Below are positions 1,389 through 36,537 of a stretch of 36,595 nt of DNA, one piece after another. Position 1 is the stretch's first letter. Each line of letters starts with the position of its first letter. The stretch comes from a virus: IMG/VR virus record IMGVR_UViG_3300042691_013033, positions 1 through 36,595 of that record. One strand, 5' to 3'. Made by a program: the position numbers and the translations under genes. The notes below the pieces were generated by a model that saw only the letters and a program-made list of their open reading frames with translations, was not told the origin of the DNA and did no database searches.

Positions 1389-1419
1389 CAACAGCGGATC
1401 AACGATCCGCGTTCACTTT
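1389..1419 (+). repeat. Intercistronic hairpin repeat, copy k (inverted orientation)
   Basis: CAACAGCGG, a 9-nt spacer, then CCGCGTTCACTTT, read on the plus strand. It matches copies at 5644-5674 and 6795-6825, which read on the minus strand. GCGG pairs with CCGC. It overlaps the stop codon of the upstream gene and lies in the gap before GTG 1369. Confidence 0.7.
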
Positions 1420-1709
1420 ACGACTTTTTGTTCTGCCACTTTACTTCCGGGCGTTGAATCGATGTGCGTGCGGTTCATCCATCGGTCATAGAGTTCCATC
1501 GTGCGCTCACGCTCGTCGCGATGTGACTCCGTCAATGACTCGTAGCCCTTTTGAATTTGCTGGAGGTGCGACGGTATCCCGACAGTTACCGTGTAATAAC
1601 CACCCCAGCCTATCGCACACAAAATTGCGAGCAACAAAACGTTATTGAATGGCTGCCCGGCCGCCCAGGCGATCACTTGAGCCGTTAGGGGTTTTGATTC
1701 TTCCGTCAC
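1413..1709 (-). CDS. Small membrane protein with coiled coil (holin/spanin candidate)
   Basis: I prefer GTG 1709 as start. It gives a 4-base GTGA overlap with the upstream stop and has GGAG upstream, whereas the longest frame (ATG 1763) would overlap by 58 bases. The 98-aa product has a short polar N-terminus, one strong membrane segment around residues 22-45 (FNNVLLLAILCAIGWGGYY), then a charged helical tail likely to form a coiled coil. One membrane span plus a coiled-coil ectodomain suits an inner-membrane spanin or a single-span holin, but no family is recognised. It closes the candidate lysis cassette. Confidence 0.7.
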   Translation of the reverse strand: MTEESKPLTAQVIAWAAGQPFNNVLLLAILCAIGWGGYYTVTVGIPSHLQQIQKGYESLTESHRDERERTMELYDRWMNRTHIDSTPGSKVAEQKVVK

Positions 1710-2050
1710 AGTTCTGTCACTCCCGGTGTCATTGCTCGTGGATCTCCGTGAACGTAATCCCACAGCCAGCCAGCCACCTGAATCGCCAGCCGATACTGCG
1801 GAAACAAAAACGCCAATGCCATTGCAACAGCCCCGACGATTCGCCTGATTGCCTCTTCCCGTGATCGTGGCGGGCTGTTTGACTCCAGCACCTCAAGCCC
1901 CACGGCAACGGTTTCGCTCACCTGACGACGTTTCTGACGCTGTGCACGCGATTCCTTGAGCACTCCAGACGCAACGGGGGCGACTTGAAACTCTCGCCAC
2001 GCTTGAGCCTCTATCCAATATGCGTCACGTTGTGTAAATGCAGCTGTCAT
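1706..2050 (-). CDS. Hypothetical protein with C-terminal hydrophobic region
   Basis: 114 aa, ATG start overlapping the upstream stop by 4 bases. Residues 1-65 are charged and helical (Arg/Gln-rich around 36-45). Residues about 70-98 are strongly hydrophobic (VGAVAMALAFLFPQY then LAIQVAGWLW) and could form one or two membrane helices. Lying between a secreted thioredoxin-like protein and another membrane protein, a holin-like or membrane-accessory role is plausible but unproven. Confidence 0.7.
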   Translation of the reverse strand: MTAAFTQRDAYWIEAQAWREFQVAPVASGVLKESRAQRQKRRQVSETVAVGLEVLESNSPPRSREEAIRRIVGAVAMALAFLFPQYRLAIQVAGWLWDYVHGDPRAMTPGVTEL

Positions 2051-3051
2051 TTCAGCCTCACAGTCAGATCAGGAGCCCCATCAAGCTCGAGCGTCATCCA
2101 GCTCAGATCATCCGCATGAGCCACACCGCGGAGTGTCGTCGAAAGACTCACGCCGAACTTCTGAGCGGAAACAGTGGCTCCGGGTGTAATCTGAATACGG
2201 CCCGGAGCCACTGAGATAGTGCGATCCCCTCCCTTCCAACTGATTGCTAAGCCGGAGTTCGGAAACTCAACACTTTGCTTCGACAGCATCGCCGCAAGCG
2301 ATGTAACGACACTGTCTGGAGCATCCACAGAAATATCGAACAATGAGCCAAACGCAGGAGCAGGAAGCCCCTGAGACTGATGAAGATGAACCGCCAGTGC
2401 CGCGGCGAGAACGTCCGGAGTAAGCTGCGCGCCGGAGACGGCTGCGACAACTGGCGGTTCGGCCTCAAATGTAGGTACGCTTTCAGCGTGATCGTCGTCG
2501 TGCAGAGCATACAGTTGTTCTGCTGACCAAGATTCCAAGCCCCACGCTTGCCAGTGCTTTCCCTGATGTGGCCCGCCTGTTCTCAAATGCTTAAGGATTC
2601 GATCTTTCCCCGGGCGAGAACTTCCATCAAGTGGTACTTCCATCTTTTCTGCACTGCGATACTCCGCAGGATTTAGCAGCGTCAATTCCTTGTCTGTCGT
2701 GTATTCACGAGGGACTGAATCAATCACTTTGCCATGCAATCGCAGGGCATCCGCAATGCTGATGATGTTTTCATCTTTGCCGCCTGATGCTTTGAATCGA
2801 GATTTTGCGGCGGGACAGTTTCTACACCACGGTTCAGACACCAACCAGCGTTCTTTTACTGTCGATTTCGTTTCGACGATGCCGGATTTTACTGGTGGGC
2901 CTGCTTCGAATGTGATCGATGGAGCAGGCTTTATCTGCTCAACGGCGACCGATTCCCCGGATGACTTTTGGAAATCATCAGGTAGATCTGGCTGCGACAT
3001 TGACGCAAGAATTGAGGCATCAAGAACCAAGATCAAAGCAATGATATTCAT
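2047..3051 (-). CDS. Secreted thioredoxin-like protein
   Basis: Start chosen at ATG 3051, which overlaps the protease stop as ATGA and has GGGAG 9 bases upstream. This gives 334 aa. Residues 1-18 form a signal-peptide-like hydrophobic stretch. A thioredoxin-type WCRNCP motif lies at residues 75-80 (C76, C79), in the usual context of a strand before it and a helix after it. A segment around 155-190 (GPHQGKHWQAWGLESWS, LHDDDH) is unassigned, and the last 120 residues look beta-rich. The gene sits directly after the papain-like protease. Inference: a periplasmic disulfide reductase or disulfide-binding protein that helps take apart a disulfide-linked envelope. Family assignment rests on the CxxC context only. 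Confidence 0.65.
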   Translation of the reverse strand: MNIIALILVLDASILASMSQPDLPDDFQKSSGESVAVEQIKPAPSITFEAGPPVKSGIVETKSTVKERWLVSEPWCRNCPAAKSRFKASGGKDENIISIADALRLHGKVIDSVPREYTTDKELTLLNPAEYRSAEKMEVPLDGSSRPGKDRILKHLRTGGPHQGKHWQAWGLESWSAEQLYALHDDDHAESVPTFEAEPPVVAAVSGAQLTPDVLAAALAVHLHQSQGLPAPAFGSLFDISVDAPDSVVTSLAAMLSKQSVEFPNSGLAISWKGGDRTISVAPGRIQITPGATVSAQKFGVSLSTTLRGVAHADDLSWMTLELDGAPDLTVRLK

Positions 3052-4013
3052 CGCCACTGGCTCCCTTCTCGGCATTCGAAGTGCCAGCTTTCAGCGTCAC
3101 CAGAGCGAAACGCCTTGACCATGTCAGATTCGTAAACGCCGTATTCACCAGGGGACAGCAGATACTCTGATCCGTCTCCCAACTGCAGCCGGTTGTTTCC
3201 GCTCGGCGTGTTCTCGCCCCAACTCTGCCAATGCAAGAATCCAGTCTCGCCATTAGCCGCAACGAACACACCGGCCAGCGTTTCACAGTGTGCTGACGGC
3301 GATGGACGTACCATGCCGTTTTTGTCTCGTGCTCCTTCACCAGCCCACGATCGGCTGAAGGCCCCGGCGAACCCAGACGCAAGACAGTCGGCCACTTCTT
3401 CTGGAGTGTTAGCCAAATGAGCGTCGAACGTGTGACCTTTCGCGGCGTCAATCACATCCTGCGGTGGACCTTTGCGGTTTGTTCCCCACACTCGAGCCAA
3501 AGCGGTTTGGCCGATCGGATCGTCTTTGCTGAGGTCGACAGATTCATACTTCGCACGCTGCGGAATGCCTGTCAGGCTTGCGACTTTTGCAGCCCATCCG
3601 CCGTACATACCGCCAGAAGTTCCCAACTGGCTTCGACCAACGATCGTTCTGCCGTATCCATAAATGAACTCATACGACAACACAACCGGCTTGCCAACGA
3701 TTTGCTGTTCGTCAATCTGCCGGAGCATGGTCAACATGCAGCCGCGATATGTGCCACGAGAAACACACGTTCCGTGATCAGAGTCCGGCCGCGGTGGACG
3801 ATGCCCGAGCTGAAAGTCATTTTTTCGCCCCGGGAAATACTTCCGCATCAATGGCGGCAGCATGACTGCGACGACCCCCCGTGCCTTTGCCCGTGCCCAC
3901 GCTCCTTTGATGCCAGCGTTGTCGGCGCAAATCGGCTGCTTTCCGGCCGCAATCAAATCAACTGCGGTCGCATCGCGTATTGCTGGGTCGAGCAAGCAGC
4001 CGGAGAATTCCAT
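3048..4013 (-). CDS. Papain-like (C1 fold) cysteine protease, candidate lysis enzyme
   Basis: 321 aa from ATG 4013, with AGGGGG at good spacing; GTG 4016 is the alternative. Three blocks match the papain layout. DHGTCVSRGTYRGC puts the nucleophile at C83, followed by the usual helix. SYEFIYGYGR and GTSGGMYGGWAAK match the segment after it. SAHCETLAGV gives the general base H242, followed by HWQSWGEN (residues 261-268), which corresponds to the NSWG block with Gln at 263. There is no signal peptide, so release would need a holin or another partner. The neighbours are a lipoprotein, a Pro-rich membrane protein and a secreted thioredoxin-like protein, as in a lysis cassette. It could instead act in virion maturation or entry. 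Confidence 0.7.
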   Translation of the reverse strand: MEFSGCLLDPAIRDATAVDLIAAGKQPICADNAGIKGAWARAKARGVVAVMLPPLMRKYFPGRKNDFQLGHRPPRPDSDHGTCVSRGTYRGCMLTMLRQIDEQQIVGKPVVLSYEFIYGYGRTIVGRSQLGTSGGMYGGWAAKVASLTGIPQRAKYESVDLSKDDPIGQTALARVWGTNRKGPPQDVIDAAKGHTFDAHLANTPEEVADCLASGFAGAFSRSWAGEGARDKNGMVRPSPSAHCETLAGVFVAANGETGFLHWQSWGENTPSGNNRLQLGDGSEYLLSPGEYGVYESDMVKAFRSGDAESWHFECREGSQWR

Positions 4014-4387
4014 CACTTCCCCCTCAGTTTTGCTGCAATCAAGGCACGATTTGCGTCAGTGATTTCAACTCGTTTTGCTCGCCAATCGTTTACACGCGAG
4101 TCATCCGTGATTGACCCCGACGCTTTCAGCCCGTCCACAATCTTTACGAGGTGGTCTGTGTGTTGCTGCATCGTTCCACCAATCCAGCGATTTTCAACAC
4201 ACTTTGCGAGTGCGTCCCAGCATTGCTCAGCCGTTGGCTTTTGCGGCTCGACTGGCTGCACAACATCCGGTTCCGGCTTCACTGGCTCCGGAGTAACTGG
4301 CGAACTGCCCCGACTGGTAAACAACCACACGGCAACAATTACCAGCACGATCGGGAGGAGGCTTCCTGACTGTGGCTCACTTGCCAT
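4013..4387 (-). CDS. Membrane-anchored protein with Pro-rich linker (spanin-like)
   Basis: 124 aa. Residues 9-24 (SLLPIVLVIVAVWLFT) form one membrane helix near the N-terminus. It is followed by a TonB-like Pro/Glu/Val linker (residues 30-52, repeated PEPV-type units) and a helical polar domain with a few Cys residues. This is the layout of a protein anchored in the inner membrane that reaches across the periplasm. It overlaps the lipoprotein gene upstream by 11 bases and the protease downstream by 1. An i-spanin/o-spanin pair with the lipoprotein is a reasonable inference. Confidence 0.75.
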   Translation of the reverse strand: MASEPQSGSLLPIVLVIVAVWLFTSRGSSPVTPEPVKPEPDVVQPVEPQKPTAEQCWDALAKCVENRWIGGTMQQHTDHLVKIVDGLKASGSITDDSRVNDWRAKRVEITDANRALIAAKLRGK

Positions 4388-4763
4388 CGATTGGCCCCTC
4401 AGGCACAGTCGCAGCCTTCGTCAGCAGCTTCGCAATCTCATCACGCAGCGGAGATTGCGGCATCCTGTTGACGATCGCAACAAGGGCCTCGAGAACTTCA
4501 GCCTGCGTAAGCGTCGCAGGCGACCCGTCAGCAGACTTCACAAGCCCGATCAGCCGCAGGATTTTTTCGAGCCCTGGCACCTTGGCGAGTTGGCCCGTGA
4601 TCTGCTCCACGATTTTGCCTGGATTGACCAGCAGCGCCAAAGCGATAATCGCTGCCGTCTGCCAGTTGAGTTGGCTCAGGTCGATTTTGACGCCAGCAGC
4701 GTCTTCCGCAGTGCAGCCAGTTAAAAGCAGGACCGGCAGAACCCAAAGCAATCTTTTGAGCAC
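4377..4763 (-). CDS. Lipoprotein with second hydrophobic segment (o-spanin candidate)
   Basis: 128 aa starting at GTG 4763 with GGGGTGA upstream. Residues 1-17 are a clear lipoprotein signal: KR, a hydrophobic stretch, then the lipobox LTGC with lipidated C17. A second hydrophobic segment (residues 36-47, TAAIIALALLVN) follows, then an amphipathic helical domain. First gene of the cassette behind the promoter at 4849-4876. In many phages a short lipoprotein beside a membrane-anchored partner forms the spanin complex; here that is inferred from layout, not from sequence similarity. Confidence 0.75.
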   Translation of the reverse strand: MLKRLLWVLPVLLLTGCTAEDAAGVKIDLSQLNWQTAAIIALALLVNPGKIVEQITGQLAKVPGLEKILRLIGLVKSADGSPATLTQAEVLEALVAIVNRMPQSPLRDEIAKLLTKAATVPEGPIDGK

Positions 4764-4848
4764 AGCTCACCCCACGACGCGATAAGTCCGCCACATTTCT
4801 GAGGGCGGTCAGCAGTCGACAAAGTTTTAGAGCCAATTGGGTGCAATC

Positions 4849-4876
4849 ATGTTACCAGGGTTCTGGCCGCTGTCAA
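4849..4876 (-). promoter_or_regulatory. Sigma-70-type promoter of the lysis/late cassette
   Basis: Reading leftwards: a perfect -35 TTGACA (4876-4871), a 16-base spacer, then TAACAT (4854-4849) as -10. It stands in the only gap longer than 100 bases in this part of the window and points into the lipoprotein gene about 85 bases on. Confidence 0.6.
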
Positions 4877-5675: not shown

Positions 5676-6014
5676 TCAGTACCCAACAATCTTCCACAGA
5701 ATCCACAGTGTTACGACATGCCAAACGTTATCGACCACGATTGAAGACCACGGGGCACAGATGCCAGTGCGAAACGATTTCTGTCCGACCGCGTCCATGT
5801 ACCACGCGACAATCTGAGTTCTGTCCTGCAGGAAATGCGATGCAAACAACGGCAACGCCGTCCACAGAGGCCACTGAGCGAACAGCATGACAAATGTCGT
5901 CCAGACTGCACAATGCACGGCACAGTGTAAGCTGGATCGCTTTTTATTGAGCGCCATCCAGTCGTTCTGTGCCAGGTAATCTCCAGCCAAATGGCCGACC
6001 AAAGCTGATATCAC
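5676..6014 (-). CDS. DUF3307-like membrane protein
   Basis: 112 aa from GTG 6014 with AAGGA upstream; the longer frame to 6104 would run through the hairpin repeat. The N-terminus VGHLAGDYLAQNDWMALNK matches the DUF3307 signature of an H-x3-D, then Q-x-D-W and K. Three to four hydrophobic helices follow (AVHCAVWTTFVMLFA, LFASHF, VVDNVWHVVTLWILW). DUF3307 proteins occur in phages and bacteria as small integral membrane proteins of unknown function. Here it is one unit of the small-gene array. Confidence 0.7.
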   Translation of the reverse strand: MISALVGHLAGDYLAQNDWMALNKKRSSLHCAVHCAVWTTFVMLFAQWPLWTALPLFASHFLQDRTQIVAWYMDAVGQKSFRTGICAPWSSIVVDNVWHVVTLWILWKIVGY

Positions 6015-6039
6015 TTTCAATTCCTTTCTGTCTGCCCAC

Positions 6040-6068
6040 AGGGACAGAGGACAGTTATTCCTCTGTTG
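6040..6068 (-). repeat. Intercistronic hairpin repeat, copy g
   Basis: On the minus strand CAACAGAGG, 9 nt, CCTCTGTCCCT. Here both arms have changed: GAGG pairs with CCTC where other copies have GCGG/CCGC. The stem reaches 7 bp (ACAGAGG/CCTCTGT). It starts 2 bases after the TGA of the upstream gene. Confidence 0.75.
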
Positions 6069-6069
6069 G

Positions 6070-6465
6070 TCACAATCCGCCAGGGACGCGGCCCCAGCGG
6101 TCATTCAAAGCATATTCCTTGTACCTGCGAAGACAGTCAGCCTGTTCTTCCTTCAGTGATTCCGCGAACCTGTCAGCGTCGAATTCCTCCCGCTGAACCG
6201 GACTGTCGGTAATCGCTTCGATCAGTCTCGTCAACTGATCCTCAGTCTTGACGTATCGCAAGAAGCAGAACCGACACTTTGAGTGTGCCATATCGCTGCG
6301 AAGCCATATACACCAATCAGGACGGGTGAAGTTGTTCGGGCAGATCTCCAGCCCAGCCTCCTGATTCTGGTGGACTGGAAGAATCATGTGCGGCGTGTTA
6401 TCCACGCCATGCGATGTGAAGCGAAAACCGATGCTTCGCAGAAATTCCCAAGTGATCTGTTTCAT
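6070..6465 (-). CDS. Hypothetical protein, 131 aa
   Basis: ATG 6465 follows AACATTGGGGAAACA, a ribosome site shared almost word for word with other genes of this array. The central part has a CRFC knuckle and a PxxWCIWLR stretch; the C-terminal third is helical and acidic (about 90-120). No family recognised. Confidence 0.75.
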   Translation of the reverse strand: MKQITWEFLRSIGFRFTSHGVDNTPHMILPVHQNQEAGLEICPNNFTRPDWCIWLRSDMAHSKCRFCFLRYVKTEDQLTRLIEAITDSPVQREEFDADRFAESLKEEQADCLRRYKEYALNDRWGRVPGGL

Positions 6466-7774: not shown

Positions 7775-8008
7775 ATTCTGCAGCAGGACGACCCCTGGAA
7801 GTGCGAGGCAGACCGCAGACGCCCAACCAATCACACCAGCAAACACGACTTTTGCGACACCGATAGCAACATGCGAAGCAATTAGTTCTTCTGCCCGCAC
7901 AGCCTCGATCACGTTGATGATTCCGCCAATGAATGCCCACCAAACGCCCGCGTATAAACCGCAGACAATGCCAGCCAGAATCAAAGCCATACCGATCACG
8001 TTTTTCAT
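7763..8008 (-). CDS. Small multi-span membrane protein
   Basis: 81 aa from ATG 8008 with GGGGAAA 4 bases upstream; an in-frame ATG at 8077 is possible but would begin next to the hairpin. Hydrophobic helices at about residues 4-32 (VIGMALILAGIVCGLYAGVWWAFIGGIINV) and 48-75 (VAIGVAKVVFAGVIGWASAVCLALPGVV), joined by a short charged loop. Small two- to three-span proteins of this look are common in phage accessory arrays; holin or superinfection roles are possible but unsupported. Confidence 0.7.
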   Translation of the reverse strand: MKNVIGMALILAGIVCGLYAGVWWAFIGGIINVIEAVRAEELIASHVAIGVAKVVFAGVIGWASAVCLALPGVVLLQNQQR

Positions 8009-8077
8009 AACTTTCCCCAAATGCACAGCGATACCACTTTTTGACGACAAACCCAATGTTTTCACCCAAAACGCCAT

Positions 8078-8105
8078 GAACAGCGGATGTTCTATTCCTC
8101 TGTTG
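8078..8105 (-). repeat. Intercistronic hairpin repeat, copy f
   Basis: On the minus strand CAACAGAGG, 10 nt, CCGCTGTT. The arms extend symmetrically (AACAGnGG/CCnCTGTT) with one mismatch. The left arm overlaps the last codons of the upstream gene. Confidence 0.65.
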
Positions 8106-8259
8106 CCTGCTCAGCCTTAATAGCCTTCTCGAGCCGTTCGCGTTTTCTTTTCTTCCAGCTCTCAACAATCTTCTTCACGGCCTGCGAAACTCGCACGTTG
8201 ACGTTCACAAGAACTTCGGTCCTCTTTTTCTTCGGTCGGCCTTTTAGTTTTTTCTTCAT
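8092..8259 (-). CDS. Small basic protein, possible ribbon-helix-helix
   Basis: Start taken at ATG 8259 (55 aa), because the longer frame to 8331 would run through the promoter at 8279-8306. N-terminus MKKKLKGRPKKKRTEV is very basic. A strand VLVNVNVRV and helix SQAVKKIVESWKKRKRERLEK follow, the order of a ribbon-helix-helix DNA-binding unit. First gene behind the promoter, so a regulator of the array is plausible. Weak evidence beyond this. Confidence 0.6.
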   Translation of the reverse strand: MKKKLKGRPKKKRTEVLVNVNVRVSQAVKKIVESWKKRKRERLEKAIKAEQATEE

Positions 8260-8278
8260 TGTGGTTTTCCGTCTACGA

Positions 8279-8306
8279 ATATTACCTAGCGAATTGCTCG
8301 CGTCAA
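8279..8306 (-). promoter_or_regulatory. Promoter of the small-gene array
   Basis: Reading leftwards: TTGACG (8306-8301), a 16-base spacer, TAATAT (8284-8279), each one mismatch from consensus. It lies in the gap after the helicase gene and before ATG 8259. Confidence 0.6.
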
Positions 8307-8336
8307 TTATTATTGTATACGGAATGTGCATCTACT

Positions 8337-8349
8337 CCAATTCAATTGG
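8337..8349. promoter_or_regulatory. Short palindrome at helicase stop
   Basis: CCAATT-C-AATTGG, a perfect 13-base inverted repeat that overlaps the helicase stop codon and lies 31 bases upstream of the -35 box of the 8.3-kb promoter. It could be an operator, or chance. Confidence 0.3.
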
Positions 8350-9646
8350 CAAATCGCCTTTCTGCCCAATCAATTGAAGACGTATCTGGACCGGCTCCAG
8401 TTATTTTCTGTCTCGCCGGATCGAACCTGCACTGCACACAAACATCGACGATTTCTCTGTTCCGATTCTTCGCTACGAAGACAACGTATTCCTCCTTTGG
8501 CTTCTCGCTATTCAGCTTCCACGGCCAAACCAAAAACAGCAGCACATCAGCATCCTGTTCGAGTTGTCCAGATTCACGAAGGTCTGATGTTTTTGGAATG
8601 AATGAATCTCGCCCCTCGATCGCTCTCGACATTTGAGCCAGCACAATCAGCAGCACTCCGGTTTCTGTGCAGACCTTTCGAAGAATCACGCTGTTGGCTG
8701 TTACTGTTTCGAATCGGTTTCCAGAACTGGACAGCAACTGCACATAATCCACGACAACGGCTTTAACTCCTTTGGCTGCCAGTTCACGAATCTCTTCCGC
8801 AACTCGCTCAGCAGTCCTGCAATTCTCGATAACTTCGCATTCGGCCCGATCGTGGAAATGTGCCTCAACGTCTGTTTCGAGCTTCTGTCTATTAGCGTTC
8901 CACATTGTCTCCGGAGTCGCAACAACAAACTGCAGCACCCGCTTTCCGACCGTCAATGAGTTCATTTCTTCAGAGAAGAATGCACACTGAATTCCGTCGC
9001 TCGTCATCTGGTCGATCATCTGCAAAGCCATTGCCGATTTCCCATGTGATGGTCTTGCAGCAATCATGATCATTTCGCCAAACTCAGCACCGCCGCCAAT
9101 CGCGCGGTTGAGCGCTGGAATCCCCAAGTCGATCAGGTTTTTCTTTCCTGTGGCTGAATGCTCAATCGACTGCCTCACGGCATCGCGAAGGCTCCTGCGC
9201 GTTGGCTTTGACCGCTCAACCTTTTCGACTGGCTTCTGTTTCTTCTTTGGTTCTGCGTACTGTGGGACGCTGACCGAATCCCATCGCTCCGGCTTTGCAT
9301 TTCTCAGATATCCGCTCTGGCCTGTTGCTCGCTGAGCGTCGTCCAGCTTGTGCTGCAACTCATGATCCGACCAGGGGGGATCACATCGAGCATTGAACTC
9401 TTTCAGGATGCTCATTGCCTGATCGGTCGACAGCTCAAATCCTTTGACCAAAACACAGGCGACGTGGTACGTCTTTGCGTGGCCATTTTCTCCAGACACT
9501 GCTGAAGGCATCTTTTCGACGTACTTCGCAGCTCGCTCGACAACAGCATCTTCCGAGCGAAAATCACGCTGGTGATGATACTCCAGTGGTTGTGCCGCGC
9601 CGTATGTTTCCAGAACGGCTGTAATCAATGCATCTCCGGAACTCAT
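8342..9646 (-). CDS. DnaB-type replicative helicase with N-terminal PriCT-like domain
   Basis: 434 aa. Residues about 165-430 form a RecA-like DnaB C-terminal domain: Walker A RPSHGKS (198-204), Walker B VKAVVVDYVQL with D300, and MSRAIEGRD followed by DLRESGQLEQDAD, the usual DnaB end motifs. Residues about 35-115 (KTYHVACVLVKGF, WSDHELQHKLDDA) resemble the small helical domain found after AEP primases rather than the DnaB N-terminal domain. It overlaps the primase-like gene by 4 bases. Primase and helicase functions thus appear divided between two coupled genes. It unwinds DNA at the phage fork. Confidence 0.9.
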   Translation of the reverse strand: MSSGDALITAVLETYGAAQPLEYHHQRDFRSEDAVVERAAKYVEKMPSAVSGENGHAKTYHVACVLVKGFELSTDQAMSILKEFNARCDPPWSDHELQHKLDDAQRATGQSGYLRNAKPERWDSVSVPQYAEPKKKQKPVEKVERSKPTRRSLRDAVRQSIEHSATGKKNLIDLGIPALNRAIGGGAEFGEMIMIAARPSHGKSAMALQMIDQMTSDGIQCAFFSEEMNSLTVGKRVLQFVVATPETMWNANRQKLETDVEAHFHDRAECEVIENCRTAERVAEEIRELAAKGVKAVVVDYVQLLSSSGNRFETVTANSVILRKVCTETGVLLIVLAQMSRAIEGRDSFIPKTSDLRESGQLEQDADVLLFLVWPWKLNSEKPKEEYVVFVAKNRNREIVDVCVQCRFDPARQKITGAGPDTSSIDWAERRFAN

Positions 9647-30870: not shown

Positions 30871-31281
30871 TCAGGCAGTTTTTTTTCGTGCGTGTGCGAT
30901 GTAGTCTGCTTCAGACTGCCCCATCGTCACCTTGAACTTGACCATTTCCGCGTATTCAGCTTTTAGCTTTGCGTCTTCGCTGGATTCTGATTCCTGGGCG
31001 ACAGCCTGAGACAGAACCGGGCTTTTCTTCGCGACGATATCACGCAGTGCGGCCTGTGTTTCCGCAACGCTGAAATTGTTATCAACGAACGTGTTGAACT
31101 TGTCGGATGCTCCGGCCAGTTCACACAAGGCCCGGATTTTCTTGCATCGGTCCCGCTCCACAGCAGCGAGATCTGTGGACAGATCTGCAGTCGGTTCCGT
31201 CTCGGTTGCTGTCTTTGTAGTTTCCTCAACGGGCGTTTCCGTTGGTTCAACGATCTCTTCAACTGGTTTTTCGTCGGCCAT
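30871..31281 (-). CDS. Nested scaffold protein (internal start)
   Basis: An ATG at 31281, in frame within the protease gene and preceded by AAAGGA at 9 bases, would give a 136-aa product. It begins MADEKPVEEIVEPTETPVEE and continues through an acidic linker and a helical end. This matches the lambda C/Nu3 arrangement, where the scaffold is the separately started C-terminal part of the protease. Confidence 0.5.
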   Translation of the reverse strand: MADEKPVEEIVEPTETPVEETTKTATETEPTADLSTDLAAVERDRCKKIRALCELAGASDKFNTFVDNNFSVAETQAALRDIVAKKSPVLSQAVAQESESSEDAKLKAEYAEMVKFKVTMGQSEADYIAHARKKTA

Positions 31282-31983
31282 TGGTGTTGGTCCTTTATTG
31301 GCTAGATACCGGTCCAAGAAGGCATTGATGCGACCTCGGACCACTTCAGGTTCCGCATCTCCAAAATATGTGGAAAGCAACAGAGTTGCCTGAGCAGGAA
31401 GGTTTCGCAGGTCTGGAGTCGTCAGATCGAACATGCCGCCGCGTGTTGCTGCTGGCTCGTCGACGATGTCTCCGGCGCGAATGTCTGAAAACCGCATCGG
31501 CCATTTCTCGCCCGTGCGTTTTCGGTCAAATTCTTCGAGGTCTTTTTGATCCAATCGCGTGGCAAGTGACACTCCGAATGCTTCCGGATCGCTTTCGGCC
31601 AAATCCATGACATAGGTTCCGAGGTCGCCTTGCGGGCTCTTAAACGCAGCGTCCGCAATGTGCAGGTCTCCGCGTAATGTTCCGCCATCAACGCGAACAT
31701 TCTTCCACCGGCCGAGATACGAGCCCATTCCATCGCTGGACATATTTGGATGAGTGAATCGGGCCTTTGATCCGTTTTTGCCGCGACTCATAAATTGTTG
31801 AGCTTGCGACAATGTTTCCGCGTCCACGGTCCACGGTCTCGCATCGCCATCATTTAACTCGCCAACCTGCATCAGGTTTGCACCGAAAATGATATTGGCT
31901 TTGCGGTCAACCTTTGCAGGCATCTCCGCTGTTCTATTCGTTCGAAACAATGCGGGATCAGCTACGGTTTCAAGCTGTGGCAT
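30871..31983 (-). CDS. Prohead protease fused to scaffold region
   Basis: 370 aa from ATG 31983, with AGGAG 7 bases upstream. The N-terminal 200 residues look like a prohead maturation protease: IIFGANLMQVGELN, KARFTHPNMSSDGMGSYLGR with probable catalytic H78, and DPEAFGVSLAT with probable S139. An acidic Thr/Glu/Pro linker (about 235-270) leads to a helical scaffold-like end. It would cut itself and the capsid proteins during shell maturation. Overlaps the portal stop by 14 bases. Confidence 0.8.
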   Translation of the reverse strand: MPQLETVADPALFRTNRTAEMPAKVDRKANIIFGANLMQVGELNDGDARPWTVDAETLSQAQQFMSRGKNGSKARFTHPNMSSDGMGSYLGRWKNVRVDGGTLRGDLHIADAAFKSPQGDLGTYVMDLAESDPEAFGVSLATRLDQKDLEEFDRKRTGEKWPMRFSDIRAGDIVDEPAATRGGMFDLTTPDLRNLPAQATLLLSTYFGDAEPEVVRGRINAFLDRYLANKGPTPMADEKPVEEIVEPTETPVEETTKTATETEPTADLSTDLAAVERDRCKKIRALCELAGASDKFNTFVDNNFSVAETQAALRDIVAKKSPVLSQAVAQESESSEDAKLKAEYAEMVKFKVTMGQSEADYIAHARKKTA

Positions 31984-33595
31984 CTTGTGTCTCCTGAACC
32001 GCTTTCGATGATGCTGACGGCTTGCCAACCGGCCGCGATTGTTCCATTGGATCCGGCAAACCTAGTTGAACTCGCGCGTCCCGAATCCGGGCCTGTGACT
32101 TCATCTTTGCCATTGCTTCGCGTTCACGCTGAGCGAGCGTTTCGTCAAAGTCTCTTCCGCGTGCTGCCAGTGATTCAGTTTCCGTCTGAAGCCCGCCAGC
32201 AATTGCAGCCAAGTCTGCCGTCACTTCTTTTTCAGGATCGACCCACGGCCAACCAGGTGGAATCCATGCGTGCTGCAAAAAGTGGGAGCGGTTCGCCTCG
32301 TAAACGACGGGATCAATGTCAATTGCCCCTTGGAACACGCATTGGTCGATGAACTTTTCCCAAACCGGTTCCAGCATCGATTCGATCAGGCAACTCTGCC
32401 AAACCTTGAATGTGATTCTGCCGTCGATTAAGGCAAGCCGTCCGCCGCTGAAGTTGTTGGTAAATTGTTTCGCCAGCAACTCATAGGGATAGCGAATCGC
32501 GGCTGCCACGCCATGCAATGCCCACTCCACATATGGAGCGAGCGTCGTTCCCGGTCTTGCAGGATCAGAAAACGCCACGCCCTCACCATCGGCGAGATAC
32601 TGAATTGTTCCTGGTGACAGATCCTCGAGATTGCTTCGAGATCGGCCTTGTTCAGCGATGACAACCGGATCTGTGATGCCCGTGATAAATGCTGAATGGC
32701 ACGCTGCGACCTGTTCAGCGATGAGATTCGCGTGAACAAAGTCCTTTAGGTCTTTAAGTCTCGCCATCGCCGGAGCGATCCACGGAACGCCTCGCAATTG
32801 TCCGGGGAACAGCTCTTCGAAGCAGTGGAGAATTTCTGTTCCAATGCTTCTTTCGTCTTCCGTTTGGTCATAGGCCTCTGAATCGCCCGGATGTGAACGC
32901 CGCACATAAGCCGCCACTCCTTGCGATTTTGAATCCAGACGCAAGCCGAGACGACGACGATCGCCTGTCTTCAACTGCTGATACGATACGATGGGGATTC
33001 TCTGCGGTGAAATCACCTGCACAGAAAGCGATACTGGCTTTGTTGGATTGTCATCGTTGCCGATGTCCAGCCAGCTTTCCCCATAGATTCCGTTGCAACG
33101 CTCAAGCTGTCGCTGTTTCGCGTAGAATCGCTCAATTTTGGCCCATCGCGAAAACAGCCATTCAGCCATAACGTTGAATTCTTCGGCCTTCGCTGGCGTG
33201 ATAATGCCGCGTTCTGGCTGAACTCGTGACTGTGGACGAATCCCCGCTCCAATCACGTTGTCAACGCGGCCATTGATTGCCGATGCTGCGTAACAATCGT
33301 TGCGGTACAAATCCAACGACCGATCAACGAGCGTTTCAAGTTCCGTCTGCAACTGGTCGTTGCTGCTGAGCTTGCTCGTCAACCACTTTTCGCCGCGAAT
33401 TCGGTCATTCTCCGCGCCTTCGTAGGCTGCGAACCTTTCGACGGCTCGCTCGCTCATCATCATGCGAATTTCGTGATCAACACGAGCCCTTACACGCTTT
33501 GCCGCCCGATCAGGGGACACTACAAAAAGAACTCGGTCAAACCTTGTTGGCAGTTTTGCTTTTTCGATTCGCTGGACGTAAGGGGATTTTGTCAT
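31970..33595 (-). CDS. Portal protein, lambda type
   Basis: 541 aa. LVDRSLDLYRNDCYAASAIN, VDNVIGAGIRPQSRVQPE, IYGESWLDIGND, VISPQRIPIVSY, IGTEILHCFEELFPGQLRGV, NNFSGGRLALIDGRITFKVW, WIPPGWPWVDPEKE match lambda-family portals along the length. Twelve copies form the vertex ring through which DNA enters. The C-terminus is basic and variable. ATGA overlap with the gpW-like gene. Confidence 0.92.
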   Translation of the reverse strand: MTKSPYVQRIEKAKLPTRFDRVLFVVSPDRAAKRVRARVDHEIRMMMSERAVERFAAYEGAENDRIRGEKWLTSKLSSNDQLQTELETLVDRSLDLYRNDCYAASAINGRVDNVIGAGIRPQSRVQPERGIITPAKAEEFNVMAEWLFSRWAKIERFYAKQRQLERCNGIYGESWLDIGNDDNPTKPVSLSVQVISPQRIPIVSYQQLKTGDRRRLGLRLDSKSQGVAAYVRRSHPGDSEAYDQTEDERSIGTEILHCFEELFPGQLRGVPWIAPAMARLKDLKDFVHANLIAEQVAACHSAFITGITDPVVIAEQGRSRSNLEDLSPGTIQYLADGEGVAFSDPARPGTTLAPYVEWALHGVAAAIRYPYELLAKQFTNNFSGGRLALIDGRITFKVWQSCLIESMLEPVWEKFIDQCVFQGAIDIDPVVYEANRSHFLQHAWIPPGWPWVDPEKEVTADLAAIAGGLQTETESLAARGRDFDETLAQREREAMAKMKSQARIRDARVQLGLPDPMEQSRPVGKPSASSKAVQETQDATA

Positions 33596-33870: not shown

Positions 33871-34080
33871 CTAATCATTTAGAACCAACCTGATAACGGT
33901 TTGAAAACTATTCCCGCACGAACAGTATCGGTACTGTGTTCGAAATCCCGATTCATCTTTTGACCTGCCGACAGATGCGAACTTTCCACAGGCTGGACAA
34001 CATCCGTTTCCCGTGGCAACGCTGCAATGAAAATATTGTCGAGTCTTCTGCACATATCCCGGCTCTTTCAGTGGCTTCAC
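33871..34080 (-). CDS. Ogr/Delta-like zinc ribbon protein
   Basis: 69 aa, GTG start in a GTGA overlap. CCPACGKFASVGRSKDESGF, then YRYCSCGNSFQTVIRLV: the Cys pairs about 25 residues apart and the YRYCxCG-F end recall Ogr/Delta late-gene activators of P2-type phages. It could instead be a structural or terminase-associated zinc protein. The operator-like palindrome at 4890-4903 is a possible target. Confidence 0.6.
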   Translation of the reverse strand: MKPLKEPGYVQKTRQYFHCSVATGNGCCPACGKFASVGRSKDESGFRTQYRYCSCGNSFQTVIRLVLND

Positions 34081-36098
34081 TTGCGTTTCCTTACAAAAGG
34101 CTCTGCTTTTTTCCCTGAAATCACGCCATTCGATGGCGTATTCGCCGCCTTTTTCCGTGCCTTTTCTGACTCATATTCCGCCACGCTGAGCCCAACGAAA
34201 GACATATAACAAGCGTCAAGAAGGTGGTTTCTCGTGAATGTCTGGACCCATTTTCTCACCGTGCCTTTCCCGACTTCGAATTGAGTCGTTTCACGTTCCG
34301 CCGTCAGTTGCTTCGCAATTTCAATTCGTCGCTCAACCTTTTCGGTCTTCGGAAGCAATAAAGCCGCCGAGCTATCGGCCGCGACCGTCAAAGCCTGGTG
34401 AACTCTTCGCTTCCAGTGGTCCGCGTTGTTCTCCAGCTCTCGAAATCGCTTGTTTGATCTCACCAAAACAACATCGTGCCATCCCTCTCCTATTTGGTGC
34501 ATCTGTCGATTCTTGTTTTGCGGCGATACGTAGGCGGATCCTGCGTGTTGCTTGAATCCGAACCCCTTTGCACGTCGCCAAAGTTGATGCTCGTTTAGGC
34601 CCTCTCGAACCGTGTCTGTCTCCCATCCGATGTCAATCAGAGCGATGTCTATTCCACGCAGCCCCGGACGCCCTTCGACTTCCCATCCTTTGTCAAATTT
34701 CTCTTGGAGGTATCTGATTGCCTGCTTGATTGCTGTCTTCAGATCGGTCATTTCTCGCATAATTGGTTCAAAACCGAAGTCAATGCAAAGCGGCTGCCCG
34801 TTGTCTCTCTTTGCTGTCACGAACCAGTCGAGTTGCTTTTCTCGCACGTCGACACCGGCCGATATCGTCACCACATCAGACGGCATCAGCCCGCGTTTCC
34901 ATTGGCTCTGCCGATGCATCACAACTTTGTAATCCAAAGGCTCAACATCTTGTTCCTTTGGTTTTGCCGGAAGCGCCCACGTCCACTGCAACAACTCCTT
35001 TTCTGCGTTGTCCTGATCGACTTCCCGAGCACCCTTCCATTCATCAGCCCCGACAATACCTGCCGTCACGAACGTGTTTGTTGCTGCCGAGTACCTGAAA
35101 CCCATCGTCTTCGATGCAACGATCTGTCCCGTGATTGTTCCGTCCGAAAGAATCGACTGACCTTTGTGCCGGACCTTGCAGTTGGCCAATTGCTTCAGTC
35201 GTGTTGCATCGTCAAACAATATCCCGCAGGAAGGACAGGCCCATCGGCTTTGAAGTTCCGCCATGTCTTCGGTCGCCGCATCCTGCCAGCCGATCAGATT
35301 GTCCCGCCCAGGACAAATCCATTCGTCGCAGGCGTGACACTGGATAACAACCTCTCCTGCTGTTCCGTTGCTCCATTCCTGCCATATGCGGCCCTGCTCA
35401 ATCGTCACCGTCGATTCGAGATAGATGCGAGCCTGCCCGCTGGCACGATACGCCCTGACACGCCCTTCCATCTGCTTCAGCTTTGTCGCTTCGTCTGATG
35501 TCCCGCCAACTTGATCAAGGTGGGAAACCTCCGTGACGACCAGAATCGGTCCCGTGAAACCCGCTCGCTTTTCGTCACCACCTCCGGCCGTAATGAACTT
35601 CAAATTGCTACCGTTGCCGAACTGAATAAGCTCAGGCGTTCCACCATTCGACCCCGCACCCTTTCGCGGCAGATATTTCGCGAACTGGCTGGCCTCGATT
35701 GCTGGCTTGATGTCCAGCTTCCACTTGTCGTTTGCCATGTCCATTGATGGCAAGCCGAAGAGGACCGTCTGATTCCTTTCGAATAGGTGATAGAGAATTG
35801 GGATAACGACGAACGCAAGCGTTTTCCCGGATTGCTGCGGGCCTGTGCAGGCATACCTAAACCAGTTGCCTGAATCGACTTCACGGAAGAACGCTCCATG
35901 TGCTGGCTGCCGTGCGATCCTAAATCGCTGTCCTTGAAATGGCCCATCTGGAAGAATGATTTCCTGCTCAGCAAACTCTGCGATTGAGCGATAACGCGCA
36001 ACGATTGCGATCCGCTGAAACGCTTCCCGGAGTGCCTTAGCCCCCGGTATGGCGTAGTCAGTCCACGTCTGTTTCGATTGTGGAACGATCATGTCCAT
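34077..36098 (-). CDS. Terminase large subunit, GpA type
   Basis: 673 aa. ATPase: CTGPQQSGKT (Walker A-like, 84-93), GPILVVTEVSHLD (Walker B region, E190). Zinc knuckles CHAC (254-257) and CPSC (288-291). Nuclease domain from about 405: VTISAGVDVREKQLDW (D417) and GIDIALIDIGWETDTV. This matches GpA (lambda-type) large terminases, which cut concatemers and drive DNA into the prohead. It overlaps the small subunit by 41 bases. Confidence 0.93.
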   Translation of the reverse strand: MDMIVPQSKQTWTDYAIPGAKALREAFQRIAIVARYRSIAEFAEQEIILPDGPFQGQRFRIARQPAHGAFFREVDSGNWFRYACTGPQQSGKTLAFVVIPILYHLFERNQTVLFGLPSMDMANDKWKLDIKPAIEASQFAKYLPRKGAGSNGGTPELIQFGNGSNLKFITAGGGDEKRAGFTGPILVVTEVSHLDQVGGTSDEATKLKQMEGRVRAYRASGQARIYLESTVTIEQGRIWQEWSNGTAGEVVIQCHACDEWICPGRDNLIGWQDAATEDMAELQSRWACPSCGILFDDATRLKQLANCKVRHKGQSILSDGTITGQIVASKTMGFRYSAATNTFVTAGIVGADEWKGAREVDQDNAEKELLQWTWALPAKPKEQDVEPLDYKVVMHRQSQWKRGLMPSDVVTISAGVDVREKQLDWFVTAKRDNGQPLCIDFGFEPIMREMTDLKTAIKQAIRYLQEKFDKGWEVEGRPGLRGIDIALIDIGWETDTVREGLNEHQLWRRAKGFGFKQHAGSAYVSPQNKNRQMHQIGEGWHDVVLVRSNKRFRELENNADHWKRRVHQALTVAADSSAALLLPKTEKVERRIEIAKQLTAERETTQFEVGKGTVRKWVQTFTRNHLLDACYMSFVGLSVAEYESEKARKKAANTPSNGVISGKKAEPFVRKRK

Positions 36099-36537
36099 AG
36101 ATTCGCTCTAGGTTCGACAGTACCTCGCGATTTGCCTCCTCGATCAACTCCAGCGTGTCCGTGTCGCCTTTTCGTTTAACATGCTCTGCGACTCTGCGAA
36201 GCGGACCAAACAACGCTGGGGCAACATCTTCAAAGTCGTTCAGCATGATCACTTGCCCGCGTGTTTGTGCGAGCTTGATTTCTTCCTGTGCGGCTCTGGC
36301 CTGCCGGTATCGCTCAAGTCCATCTGAGTCATCCCCTGCCAGCAATGTTTCGTCTGTCGGAACTGGGTTTGCCTCTTTTCTGAGATACCACCAAACGCAG
36401 ACGGCATAGATTTCAGCGGCGTTGTCTTTGTCGAAGTCTGGAAAGCTAGGCTCGTGTTGAAATTTAGAGACAACCGGTGGCGTTACACCAAGAATCCGGC
36501 TCAGCTCGCTCTTGATGGCTCGCTTCTTGTGTGCCAT
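36058..36537 (-). CDS. Terminase small subunit, Nu1-like
   Basis: 159 aa. Residues 5-30 (KRAIKSELSRILGVTPPVVSKF) form an HTH. Then an acidic linker and the typical helical part ERYRQARAAQEEIKLAQTRGQVI, seen in Nu1-type small terminases. It recognises the packaging site and recruits the large subunit. The start has no clear ribosome site; translation may depend on the gene ending just upstream if the genome is circular. Confidence 0.85.
   Translation of the reverse strand: MAHKKRAIKSELSRILGVTPPVVSKFQHEPSFPDFDKDNAAEIYAVCVWWYLRKEANPVPTDETLLAGDDSDGLERYRQARAAQEEIKLAQTRGQVIMLNDFEDVAPALFGPLRRVAEHVKRKGDTDTLELIEEANREVLSNLERIYGHDRSTIETDVD

Follow-up and report, generated by a model that had tools for sequence, protein, structure and literature searches.

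In phage lambda, the lysis genes (S holin, R endolysin and the Rz/Rz1 spanins) sit upstream of the terminase genes, and endolysin genes are often exchanged between phages. Papain-like enzymes are able to cut peptidoglycan peptides, with NlpC/P60 and CHAP enzymes being papain-like peptidoglycan endopeptidases or amidases. A papain-family domain, N5, has also been proposed in the Lysin A endolysins of mycobacteriophages (PMC3314691). In a viral record of 36,595 nucleotides (IMG/VR record IMGVR_UViG_3300042691_013033; hereafter the window), six genes are best read as the lysis module of a tailed phage in which a papain-like peptidase fills the endolysin slot, a reading to which we assign a probability of about 0.6. 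The module suggests that the window phage and its relatives open their hosts by an unusual route.

The six genes are tightly packed on the minus strand from 4763 to 1413, in the order A, B, C, D, E, F (Table 1). All were present, and in the sequence anticipated by the original prediction, with start/stop overlaps of 4-11 bp at each of the A/B, B/C, C/D and D/E junctions. The residues previously numbered C83 and H242 in gene C become C84 and H243 when numbering starts from the GTG at 4016. A consensus promoter had also been proposed upstream of gene A; the site agrees with the consensus at 10 of 12 positions, but shuffled sequences yield 3.2 such sites where one was observed, and the proposal lacks statistical support. 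Upstream of the module, positions 5676-6104 encode a DUF3307 membrane protein (phrog_2470), and a small ORF in the window encodes a CsrA-family protein (Pfam E=4e-12).

Table 1. Features of the putative lysis module and of the terminase genes in the window.
Feature	Position	Strand	Description
Gene A, lipoprotein	4377..4763	-	128 aa; lipobox LTGC, then hydrophobic stretch NWQTAAIIALALLV
Gene B	4013..4387	-	124 aa; one N-terminal span, Pro-rich linker, small domain
Gene C, papain-like cysteine peptidase-type	3048..4016	-	322 aa; C84, H243, Q264-S-W; Q69 a possible oxyanion Gln
Gene D, thioredoxin/glutaredoxin-like, exported or anchored	2047..3051	-	334 aa
Gene E, holin-like candidate	1706..2050	-	114 aa; RSREEAI...FPQYRLAIQVAGWLWDY, C-terminal half hydrophobic
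Gene F	1413..1763	-	116 aa; single span, charged tail; out-of-frame overlap with end of E
Promoter-like TTGACA-16-TAACAT	4849..4876	-	Upstream of A; not above chance
Small terminase subunit	36058..36537	-	phrog_57, E=1.7e-7; opposite end of record
Large terminase, GpA-type	34077..36098	-	Genomic context

About a dozen uncultured phage relatives, found by scans with profiles of C, D, A and E, share the module. The A-B-C-D-E unit recurs in L002-L006, L008, L033-L035, L038 and L047, and a B-C-D-E unit in L015, L016 and L021. Across 50,697 public phage genomes, neither the protease gene nor the CxxC gene turned up, except for papain-like genes in one huge phage. A 595-kb uncultured phage (L017; LR756511.1) carries two papain-like genes (449226-449897 and 481681-482514); one of them comes after the gene for a secreted Pro-rich protein, and close to it is encoded a cytochrome-like CxxCH protein that shows weak similarity to a planctomycete cytochrome.

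The C slot of the relatives holds unmistakable papain-family (C1) proteases. Tested singly, the C proteins of L034 (E=7e-9), L040 (2e-8) and L033 (2e-8) match Peptidase_C1 above the Pfam cut-off, L036 and L037 also match this family in a record search, and the C genes of L033-L037 and L040 are papain-type. A profile of eight relatives' C proteins matched 165 distinct PDB sequences at E<=0.001, including the cysteine protease 3ois (E=1.2e-27), with the best 60 of the 165 being papain-family proteases. The Q-C-H-N residues are present in the relatives' C genes and the match to C1 spans nearly the full domain. Related C1-like genes accompany D and E in L015, L016 and L021, and window-type C proteins (54-76% identical by BLAST) occur in L002-L006, L038 and L047. 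A third papain-like C, assigned by motif only, lies between A, D and E genes of the window kind in L008, and L041 and L042 encode yet another papain-like C.

From its motifs, the C protein of the window is most likely a divergent member of this papain-like slot. C84 and H243 are invariant across 12-13 aligned sequences and S265 in 13, in an alignment where identity to the distant rows is 16-18%. The catalytic Asn is replaced by Gln (Q264-S-W) in window C and in L002-L004, whereas the intermediates L038 and L047 keep NSW; there is no Gln at -6 from the Cys in window C, and Q69 (-15) is invariant within the window-type group. The pattern G[TS]C...H...[NQ]SW, picked after the fact, occurs in one of the 38 window ORFs of at least 150 aa and in none of 20,000 shuffles of the C protein; it is the conservation in relatives that provides real evidence that the pattern exceeds chance. 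Window C did not match Pfam Peptidase_C1, and a profile search between it and the C1 relatives, in which a C1 profile did not find window C, returned nothing significant. In hhalign, the window-type profile and the C1 family are aligned at C84, H243 and Q264-S-W (E=0.0021, probability 13%), a match that did not appear with few sequences and improved after the intermediates L038 and L047 were added. PDB searches with window C alone or window D alone found nothing. An AlphaFold2 model from window C and four close homologues was unusable (pLDDT 32.6). In a second, low-confidence model from 12 sequences (pLDDT 38.9), a helix begins at C84, a strand lies just past H243 and another strand ends at Q264, as in the papain order, and 20 of its 43 Foldseek hits are papain-clan proteases, none significant. 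The alignment behind this model included papain-family rows that may have pulled it towards the papain fold, and the modelled secondary structure and Foldseek matches are suggestive only.

Gene C is exchanged between near relatives while its neighbours stay in place. The A, B and D proteins of L033 and L034 are 96, 86 and 92% identical, their C proteins only 48%; between the window and L008, A, D and E are 89, 82 and 79% identical, and C cannot be aligned by BLAST. To judge from these identities, the replacement in L033 was probably a recent swap. Among the relatives at large, B and C vary quickly. Directly before the C1 protease that replaces the L034-type C, L033 carries an HNH endonuclease-like gene (7839-9268, identified by eye).

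Gene D has exactly two cysteines, both within the motif WCRNCP, and one N-terminal hydrophobic span. Across ten D homologues, L70, C76, C79 and P114 are invariant, such that the CxxC motif and a cis-Pro-like proline (P114) are kept in all of them; the protein also has an HLR...LYALHDDDH segment and a conserved C-terminal domain. The homologue in L034 begins with a lipobox. Glutaredoxin is the top Pfam family for the D homologues, with weak matches in two (best E=9e-4 for D of L021, below the cut-off), and is also the best, non-significant PDB hit. Window D itself gave no Glutaredoxin match in Pfam, where its lone hit is irrelevant. Gene D is weakly glutaredoxin-like. In L041 (2516-3334) and L042 (1891-2547), the D slot is taken by a coiled-coil lipoprotein that contains Cys at its C-terminus; its motif HGI.T.GM..QEMAD.HA.IHDG resembles the HLR...LHDDDH segment of D.

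B, D and F each have one hydrophobic span, and E is hydrophobic, yet under the transmembrane threshold used. Homologues of A occur in L002-L006, L008 (89%), L033-L038 and L047, and a homologue of F in L042 (2973-3326). A, B, E and F matched no holin or spanin family, and searches of the window cassette proteins against Pfam, PHROGs and NCBIfam gave no meaningful match. Upstream of C in L042, a 67-aa protein (370-570) hits the holin family phrog_34682 (E=0.0017), and a near-identical counterpart lies upstream of C in L040. Downstream of E, L040 (7355-8008), L041 (3821-4714) and L034 (10036-10740) encode proteins with a PAS-like N-terminus (Pfam PAS weak, E about 0.015) and what looks by eye like a membrane segment at the C-terminus.

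The genomic position of the module resembles that of known lysis genes. With gene identities read from sequence, it precedes TerS-TerL-portal in L002, TerL-portal in L047 and TerL in L038; in L008, several genes separate it from the terminase downstream. Tail-fibre-like genes come after the module in the window and lead up to one end of the linear record; TerS and TerL are at the opposite end. A terminal repeat was not found in the window; a circularly permuted genome, which would join the module to the terminase genes, is plausible. The pre-terminase position in L002, L038 and L047, together with the holin-like gene upstream of C in L040 and L042, points to lysis.

The original prediction had held that the window lacks any lysozyme, amidase, transglycosylase or endopeptidase, and this was borne out: 52 window ORFs matched 23 Pfam families, including portal, Mu gpT-like capsid, GpA terminase, tape measure and DnaB, none of them lytic. 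A canonical endolysin in another gene had been named beforehand as evidence against the proposal, and SLT, Amidase_2, Phage_lysozyme, M23, M15_4, CHAP and NLPC_P60 domains are all absent from the window. The common endolysin domains tested were likewise absent from the 17 other viral contigs searched (CHAP, NLPC_P60, SLT and Amidase_2 in all; Phage_lysozyme, M23 and M15_4 in the first set), the one exception among related viral records being the 595-kb phage LR756511, which has an M23 domain. A candidate in L025 (9199-9801), considered SLT-like by eye, found no support in Pfam or PHROGs. The records are fragments, and an endolysin of another family, or an unrecognised one, could be encoded elsewhere.

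Under the preferred reading, C would be a cytoplasmic papain-like peptidase that occupies the endolysin slot; it has neither a signal peptide nor a hydrophobic span. Small hydrophobic proteins (A, E or F, or the 67-aa holin-like protein in L040 and L042) would release it across the membrane, after which it would cut peptide bonds in the envelope, either in structural envelope protein or in peptidoglycan stem peptides. D, exported via its N-terminal segment, may use its CxxC motif to reduce or rearrange envelope disulfides, or to keep the protease thiol active. The lipoprotein A and the single-span, Pro-rich B might handle the outer-membrane step in a spanin-like manner.

The host that these proteins would act on may be a planctomycete. 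Profile scans of genome contigs with C and D found no bacterial host or prophage, and the phages returned by a terminase search were all Roseobacter phages, about 22% identical, and do not indicate a host. Older work, as cited in PMC3035269, describes planctomycete envelopes as protein-rich, Pro- and Cys-rich, SDS-resistant and disulfide-stabilised. Planctomycetes also have peptidoglycan, and it is lysozyme-sensitive (PMC4432640).

Among the alternatives, the one that survives best is that C is an ordinary endolysin in disguise, i.e. a papain-like peptidoglycan endopeptidase or amidase in a standard holin-endolysin-spanin set, with D as an accessory disulfide factor. The proposed N5 domain provides a precedent (PMC3314691), C resembles holin-released endolysins in having no signal peptide, and the lysozyme-sensitive sacculi of planctomycetes would need a peptidoglycan cutter, if these are the hosts. 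However, the relatives' C proteins match C1 papain proteases and not NlpC/P60 or CHAP, and no wall-binding domain was seen in C, making this explanation a real but minority possibility. More doubtful is the specific route first envisaged, in which D reduces disulfides and C digests Cys-/Pro-rich envelope protein, with neither glycan strands nor stem peptides cut. What stands of that proposal is a conserved phage module that combines a papain-like protease with an exported CxxC protein and comes without a recognisable endolysin; disulfide reduction as the lytic step is not supported, nor is lysis without peptidoglycan cutting, since peptidoglycan peptides can be substrates of papain-like enzymes and planctomycetes have the polymer in lysozyme-sensitive form.

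It is unlikely that the module is instead a moron, i.e. a surface-modifying or exclusion module that blocks other phages or changes host physiology while an unrecognised gene lyses the cell. The presence of a lipoprotein, an exported CxxC protein and a protease that varies does recall accessory modules, and the rapid variation of C and B would fit. However, the module is retained in many divergent phages at a lambda-like lysis position, a holin-like gene lies upstream of C in L040 and L042, and no other lytic gene was found. A role for C as a virion protein, be it a maturation protease of head or tail or something else, is improbable: phage proteases are often maturation enzymes and tail-fibre-like genes follow the module in the window, but the module lies upstream of the terminase and outside the portal-capsid block, arguing against a prohead protease, gene 30871-32028, itself only weakly assigned as a protease (E=0.0098), fills the protease/scaffold slot beside the Mu gpT-like capsid gene, and a co-conserved exported CxxC protein and lipoprotein fit such a role poorly.

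The module serves as a marker for a group of uncultured phages. If the lysis reading is true, lysis would be based on a protease and a redox protein, which would point to protein as what holds the host envelope together; the module would also provide tools to open bacteria that are hard to lyse, and a way to test directly whether their protein layers bear load.

One of the closest known systems is the lambda cassette, with which the module shares its place before the terminase, its compact overlapping genes, a swapped enzyme gene, and the combination of a cytoplasmic enzyme with small membrane proteins and a lipoprotein. The module differs in that the enzyme is papain-like rather than a transglycosylase, lysozyme, amidase or peptidoglycan endopeptidase and that an exported CxxC protein is added, and its holin and spanin roles are putative. 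Like Peptidase C1 enzymes such as the cysteine protease 3ois, window C keeps the Cys, His and SW motif in order, but its catalytic Asn is replaced by Gln, its oxyanion Gln is displaced or missing, and Pfam does not match it significantly. It shares with N5 of mycobacteriophage Lysin A (PMC3314691) a proposed place for a papain-family domain in a phage lysis enzyme; N5, however, is a single domain within a modular peptidoglycan endolysin, whereas C stands alone and is paired with a CxxC protein. Gene D, in turn, has the CxxC motif and following conserved proline of the glutaredoxin/thioredoxin fold, a likeness at the level of sequence, and adds the HLR...LHDDDH segment, a C-terminal domain and an N-terminal export signal or lipobox.
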